This document shows, in pieces, positions 10,649 through 11,281 of a stretch of 44,930 nt of DNA. The stretch is from Natrialba chahannaoensis JCM 10990 (GTDB lineage Archaea > Halobacteriota > Halobacteria > Halobacteriales > Natrialbaceae), in NCBI RefSeq assembly GCF_000337135.1, contig NZ_AOIN01000099.1, positions 1,569-46,498 of the forward strand, in the 5' to 3' direction. The translations under genes and the position numbers were made by a program. Position 1 is the stretch's first letter; each line of letters starts with the position of its first letter. Below the pieces are notes generated by a model that did no database searches, was not told where the DNA came from, and saw only the letters and a list, made by a program, of their open reading frames with translations.

Positions 10649-11281
10649 CTACTCGAGTTCCGATGCAGTCTGTGCGGCAGCATCAGTCTGTACGTCCCGT
10701 CGCATCGCGATTTCGAACCACGGACAGAGACGGAGTTGTCGGTACCATTCGGGATGCTCGGCCAGACGTTCGTAGGGGACCCACAGCAGCCCTGCAACCT
10801 CTTCCTCGTTCGGGTCGAGGTCGCTATCAGTCAGCGTGAGCTTCAATACAGCACAGACTTCGTGTTCGACGCCTGCGTTTTCGAAGTAGCGCTTGTACTC
10901 GAAGCGGTCGGTGACCCGCAGGTCGTCGTACTGATCGGGCGTAATCCCAAGTTCCTCCTCGAGTCGCTGGCGGGTCGCCTCCTCCTGACTCTGGCCCTCA
11001 ACGGGGTGGGAGGCGACAGTCCCGTCCCAGTAGGTTCCCCAGAGGCGCTTTTCTGGTGCTCGTTGTGCCAGGAGTACGTTGTCGTCCTGGTCGAATACGA
11101 GTGAGGTGAACGCCCGGTGACGGATGCCGTCGCCGGTGTGGGCCTCGAGTCGGTTGACCAACTCGAGTGCGGTGTCGGTTTCGTCGACGGCGATCACGTC
11201 CTGACGAGCGTTCTTGTGCTCGTGTTCGTGTTCGGTGTCATCATGTTCGTGATTCTCGCCCGGCGCGCCAGGTGTGCTCAT
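10649..11281 (-). CDS. type I isopentenyl-diphosphate isomerase-like Nudix protein
   Basis: By homology a type I IPP isomerase (IPP to DMAPP, isoprenoid lipid synthesis), 210 aa from ATG 11281. Seen: a His-rich N-terminus (EHEHEHK), metal-ligand region GIRHRAFTSLVFD, active-site block WDGTVASHPVEGQSQEEA, Nudix-like RLEEELG, and VEHEVCAVL carrying the metal-binding/catalytic Glu pair. The catalytic Cys of type I enzymes (E. coli WTNSVCGHP) is Ala here (WDGTVASHP), while the adjacent His is kept. Either this haloarchaeal branch works differently or it is a Nudix hydrolase and DMAPP comes from a type II enzyme elsewhere. The frame stays open without a stop up to 11575 (see next entry), so a 308-aa product is possible. 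Confidence 0.75.
   Translation of the reverse strand: MSTPGAPGENHEHDDTEHEHEHKNARQDVIAVDETDTALELVNRLEAHTGDGIRHRAFTSLVFDQDDNVLLAQRAPEKRLWGTYWDGTVASHPVEGQSQEEATRQRLEEELGITPDQYDDLRVTDRFEYKRYFENAGVEHEVCAVLKLTLTDSDLDPNEEEVAGLLWVPYERLAEHPEWYRQLRLCPWFEIAMRRDVQTDAAAQTASELE

Follow-up and report, generated by a model that had tools for sequence, protein, structure and literature searches.

Can a type I IPP isomerase (IDI-1) function without its catalytic cysteine? The question is raised by a gene at 10649..11281 on the minus strand of a 44,930-nucleotide stretch of Natrialba chahannaoensis JCM 10990 DNA (the window), the product of which carries an alanine in place of E. coli Cys67. In E. coli and yeast IDI, mutants with Ala in place of this cysteine are inactive. 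In the canonical enzyme, a glutamate is described as protonating the double bond of the substrate and a cysteine as abstracting the C2 proton (PMC3509576). The role of Cys67 as the C2-proton abstractor, together with the inactivity of the mutants, weighs against a functional Ala enzyme. Cys67 is the textbook C2 base, and archaea with isoprenoid membranes seem to depend on a form that lacks it; such a form would be a natural experiment in how another group can satisfy the carbocation mechanism.

The Gene and Its Product

A preliminary description of the locus placed the gene correctly at 10649-11281; it lies on the minus strand, and its 210 aa product, P0001, is not encoded on the plus strand of this interval. 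The open frame extends upstream as far as 11575, and a start at 11281 agrees with the same-genus relatives, which align from residue 1 (G338, G032). A Pfam search of P0001 (E up to 0.001) returned general NUDIX families and nothing else; in particular, the FMN_dh-type domain of type II IPP isomerases was not found at this threshold. The best NCBIfam matches are two IDI equivalogs, TIGR02150 and NF002995, with P0001 just under both cut-offs (99.3 vs. 105.8 bits and 124.1 vs. 127 bits, respectively). The TIGR02150 cut-off was passed by none of 60 haloarchaeal genomes, the best score being 105 bits. All 13 distinct PDB sequences that match P0001 at E up to 1e-5 are IPP isomerases, as are the top 13 Foldseek matches of its structure model (mean pLDDT 77.8, with residues 82-84 below 50; the structure-model alignment, A1, has 47 rows). 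The top structural match is E. coli IDI, 1hx3 (Z 18.4 over 167 residues, model residues 27-199, rmsd 2.9).

Residues 1-22 of P0001 (11216..11281, minus strand; HEHDDTEHEHEH) form an N-terminus rich in His, Glu, and Asp that is predicted to be disordered (pLDDT below 50 in the model) and that might bind metal. None of the eight scanned neighbors of the gene in the window is a mevalonate-pathway gene. Among 138 loci, the recurring flanking genes are those for an Lrp-type regulator (74), ADH (53), PHP (44), and DUF7853 (36), and these carry no information on the function of P0001.

The Active Site Across Halobacteria

The haloarchaeal sample consisted of 168 loci from the N. chahannaoensis genome itself, its relatives, and 80 genome records (the best 80 of 279 relatives). 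These loci overlap partly and give 149 different proteins, 148 of which were scorable (L152 was excluded, its Ala being read by tblastn). The 21 bacterial comparators were picked for variety among 60 of 115 plasmid-collection records; one (L222) is partial, and two (Nonomuraea and one E. coli) are of chromosome size. The comparison covers Halobacteria, bacteria, and Nudix relatives from Halobacteriota, and thaumarchaeal and Chloroflexota IDI-1 lie outside it; therefore, the Ala form is not claimed to be confined to Halobacteria.

In the alignment, the E. coli block WTNSVCGHP corresponds to WDGTVASHP in P0001 (residues 85-93; 11003..11029, minus strand), which makes Ala90 the equivalent of Cys67, His92 of His69, Asp86 of Thr63, Gly87 of Asn64, and Ser91 of Gly68. 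The preliminary description had read this Cys to Ala replacement from the one sequence, and it holds throughout the sample: Ala stands at the Cys67 position in 168/168 haloarchaeal loci with a tblastn match, and Cys67 is kept in 21/21 comparators. An Ala-type DNA pattern was found in the same 168 loci and in 30/30 loci of another set that shares many genomes with the first. The 168 loci rule out sequencing error, or mutation in a single strain, as the source of Ala90.

The same description held that the metal-binding His and the later Glu pair remain, and this too is borne out. His48, His55, and His92 (H25, H32, and H69 of E. coli) and Glu139 and Glu141 (E114 and E116; within Glu139-His-Glu141-Val, 10856..10867, minus strand) are invariant in all 168 loci, together with Tyr129 and Trp188 (the equivalents of Tyr104 and Trp161), Cys143, and Cys186. 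Glu110, equivalent to E. coli E87, is present in each of the 148 scorable proteins. The diphosphate-site residues of P0001 are R44, R74, K78, and R106; E. coli R51, K55, and R83 are retained in the haloarchaeal proteins, and K21 is kept in kind, as Arg. A diphosphate-binding role is presumed for E. coli R83, and we take K21, R51, and K55 to be Lys89, Arg123, and Lys127 of the yeast enzyme. In a yeast IDI model, these three yeast residues are given as phosphate contacts (PMC5925831).

Five companion changes are invariant in the 148 scorable proteins: T63D, N64G, C67A, G68S, and S159C (E. coli numbering). The haloarchaeal alignment has 26 clade-specific positions, as a long stem would lead one to expect, and these five are those close to the active site; each alone is therefore weak evidence. 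Position 159 is occupied in P0001 by Cys186, within Leu185-Cys186-Pro187-Trp188 (10718..10729, minus strand); among the 21 comparators, it is Ser in 13, Thr in seven, a gap in one, and Cys in none. Cys143 (E. coli Cys118) is common to 11 comparators and is therefore not the new feature. Taken together, S159C, which lies beside the active-site Trp, and T63D and N64G suggest a rebuilt active site. Thus, the haloarchaeal proteins resemble type I IDI (E. coli Idi, human IDI1) in fold and in metal-site, E87, diphosphate-site, Y104, and W161 residues, but differ at positions 63, 64, 67, and 159, in their long stem, and in scoring under the NCBIfam cut-offs. The E. coli IDI of 1hx3 and 1ow2/1q54 reads NSVAGHP, with Ala at 67 as in haloarchaea but without the haloarchaeal changes at 63, 64, and 159, and is presumably inactive. 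Human IDI2 has Ser at the Cys position.

Isomerase or Nudix Hydrolase

As one of two options, the preliminary description proposed that the protein is a Nudix hydrolase mislabeled as an isomerase. On this reading, haloarchaea without a type II IDI would use some other isomerase. The loss of the catalytic Cys would fit such a protein, as would the Pfam result, and the E. coli Nudix protein 2fkb, which we take to be YfcD, is a close structural match. By VIA-align, the Z score of 2fkb (17.3) falls between those of E. coli IDI (18.4) and human IDI1 (17.1), so the fold, which P0001 has in common with Nudix hydrolases, does not separate isomerase from hydrolase; the residues do. The Nudix hydrolase box is given as GX5EX7REUXEEXGU (PMC5389931). 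P0001 reads SX5QX7QRLEEELGI, which breaks the box at four positions: the Gly is Ser in 148/148 haloarchaeal proteins, the first Glu is Gln in 145/148 (three keep Glu), and the R-E pair is replaced, mostly by Gln or Glu followed by Arg. Unlike in Nudix hydrolases, the isomerase metal site is present, its residues and those of the diphosphate site are invariant, and IPP isomerases head the structural matches, all of which makes a mislabeled hydrolase improbable. By sequence and distribution, the P0001 family is very probably a branch of type I IDI that spans the clade and is predicted to isomerize IPP still.

Distribution of the Ala Protein and of Type II Isomerase

Of 391 Halobacteria genomes, 386 have a homolog of P0001 (best E-value per genome at most 4.6e-78), and 115 have a type II IDI over the cut-off; the other 276 have none over it. 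When the two tables are combined, 275 genomes carry the P0001 homolog alone, 111 carry both proteins, four carry type II only, and one (G381, 88% complete) carries neither. Genomes that lack the P0001 homolog tend to have type II (Fisher p 0.028; 0.007 when G381 is left out), by a test that ignores kinship, three of the four type-II-only genomes being from one family. These four genomes (G021, G218, G285, and G382) are haloarchaeal, measure 1.9-2.3 Mb, and belong to two families. Full-length type II matches score at least 383 bits, with one contig-end piece (G366) at 297 bits, and below the cut-off the highest score is 113 bits, for a piece in G231, a genome that has a full copy as well. Partial type II matches in G041 (contig C2, 5963-6226; 74.9 bits) and G009 (contig C1, 1792146-1792382; 73.6 bits) may be remnants of a lost gene.

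A search of the N. chahannaoensis genome itself for a type II enzyme found a full one on contig C34 (L174; 2099-3271, minus strand), with a gene for ribose 5-phosphate isomerase A nearby. The type II (FMN) isomerase catalyzes the same reaction but belongs to a different family with a different cofactor, and it is this protein, not P0001, that has the FMN_dh match. The question is therefore open from this organism alone, and the relatives without type II decide it. In 59 sampled genomes without type II, representing 58 genera, the Ala form is present in 59/59. With nine more (G255 by tblastn; G007, G008, G009, G011, G012, G023, G035, and G037 by DNA pattern), position 67 has been read in 59 + 9 of the 275 genomes without type II, about 207 being left out.

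Searches of the same 59 genomes and the N. chahannaoensis genome gave one full-length TIGR02150 match per genome in 60/60. Further weak, partial matches (20.6 to 30.9 bits) occur in G239, G142, and G371, and the G239 region (L173) gave no tblastn match at E 1e-3. A Cys-form DNA pattern, which recovers 19 of the 21 comparators and misses two and is thus of incomplete sensitivity, matched 3/391 genomes; the reversed pattern also matched three. The three Cys-pattern matches sit in frames of 19, 26, and 139 residues, none recognizable as IDI. On the pattern and TIGR02150 searches, the idea that haloarchaea have an additional type I enzyme with the Cys is rejected. IspH, the last enzyme of the MEP route, was found in 0/60 of these genomes (control, 9/14 known genomes). 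This result and the near universality of the P0001 homolog where type II is absent count further against a hydrolase.

The presence of a type II IDI in the N. chahannaoensis genome, and of both proteins in 111/391 genomes, could also mean that the Ala protein is a catalytically dead IDI relative kept for regulation or binding, while type II carries out the chemistry. However, all but one of the 276 genomes without type II carry the P0001 homolog, and the tested catalytic residues other than Cys67 are invariant in the 168 loci, drawn from genomes with and without type II; a dead relative is thus very unlikely indeed.

The mevalonate route is described as ending in IPP, and the membranes as isoprenoid (PMC8305020, PMC13358004). 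Given these two points, and since searches found no other known isomerase family, only the Ala protein is recognizable as a candidate, and the case for it as the isomerase of type-II-lacking genomes is strong, assuming that no further isomerase family exists. The narrowly missed TIGR02150 and NF002995 cut-offs and the type II IDI of the N. chahannaoensis genome count against this role. On the whole evidence, the haloarchaeal Ala90 protein is in all likelihood a functional IPP:DMAPP isomerase without Cys67, whichever group replaces the thiol. The other option of the preliminary description, a different mechanism in the haloarchaeal branch, is thereby favored, as the Ala form is present wherever position 67 was read and is the only recognizable isomerase in most of the haloarchaeal genomes searched; the new catalytic group is a candidate only.

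The family is already annotated as idi or IdiA in haloarchaea (PMC6282799, PMC13358004). HFX_2519 is listed by its 32% identity to E. coli idi (PMC6282799), and HVO_2506 is named IdiA (PMC13358004). When the pathway genes were overexpressed one at a time, crtB was the only one to give lycopene (PMC6282799). In the open-licence literature, neither an activity measurement of any haloarchaeal member nor a report of the missing Cys was found. Annotation of haloarchaeal idi by similarity overlooks the catalytic residue, which is a caution.

Proposed Mechanism

In the proposed mechanism, Glu141 and Tyr129 would protonate C4 of IPP, as in E. coli, and Trp188 would stabilize the tertiary carbocation. 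The C2 proton would then be taken by some group that is not a thiol at position 67. The leading single candidate for this missing role would be Cys186 (E. coli Ser159), because it offers a thiol, never varies among the haloarchaeal loci, stands where the comparators have Ser or Thr, and lies two residues before the active-site Trp. The preliminary description had considered a conserved alternative Cys in the active site; an invariant one does exist in Cys186, and its placement in the active site is a candidate assignment. We take W256 of yeast IDI to be E. coli W161. In a directed evolution study of the yeast enzyme, W256C is described as beneficial, and a homology model puts residue 256 close to both Cys139 and the hydrophobic portion of IPP (PMC5925831). 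At the least, then, that wall can accommodate a thiol. As the specific replacement acid/base, Cys186 is a tentative choice, possible and somewhat short of probable.

Within the reading that the protein is an isomerase without Cys67, a sub-case assigns the new acid/base to Asp86 (E. coli Thr63), the substrate diphosphate, or a metal-bound water instead of Cys186. Asp86 and Gly87 stand beside the lost Cys, invariant in 148/148 haloarchaeal proteins and absent from 21/21 comparators, and diphosphate acts as a base in prenyl transferases. On the other hand, Asp86 precedes position 67 by four residues, which may be too great a separation if the strand is extended, and diphosphate and water have no positive support. 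The chance that one of these three groups serves in this role may be put at just under even.

With Cys186 as the acid/base, the active site would have been rebuilt once, early in Halobacteria, by a move of the thiol from position 67 to position 159, beside the carbocation-stabilizing Trp, an account that is possible though less likely than not. Asp86 and Gly87 would in that case reshape the old site, and isomerization would run with a differently placed acid/base. If true, an essential lipid-precursor enzyme would perform the same isomerization with a relocated acid/base.

Evolution and Relatives Outside Halobacteria

A quick tree was built from 67 rows; its 39 haloarchaeal rows are set apart from the rest by a branch (SH-aLRT 100), and their stem measures 4.31 changes per column. 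A single origin of the haloarchaeal Ala form would be the simplest reading of this tree, which has a long stem and leaves the outgroups outside. Haloarchaeal IDI1 has been described as falling within the bacterial sequences and as a likely transfer (PMC3533463).

Outside Halobacteria but within the phylum, weak TIGR02150 matches (22.9 to 63 bits) occur in nine genomes (L205-L213). Seven of the nine were aligned and placed in the tree; L209 and L213 gave no row and were left out. All seven are treated, from their sequences, as putative Nudix proteins with no function assigned. In L207, L208, L210, L211, and L212, one or more of the three metal-binding histidines is missing. L205 and L206 (genomes G572 and G416; Halobacteriota outside haloarchaea) keep the three histidines and the first Glu; their second Glu is replaced by Asp, and position 67 holds Ser or Gly. 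The Ser or Gly of these two is a caution that loss of Cys67 also occurs in IDI-like Nudix proteins that are perhaps not isomerases.

Gene Context Among the Plasmid Records

Escherichia accounts for 53 of the 115 matching plasmid-collection records. On a conjugative E. coli plasmid (L231), idi adjoins a gene annotated as a "class 1 isoprenoid biosynthesis enzyme," and on a Rhizobium rhizogenes plasmid (L228), it adjoins an isopentenyl transferase gene. The Neorhizobium idi of L215 is annotated at 1226-1519, with a start that falls well within the IDI-like match at 1001-1411 and looks too late.
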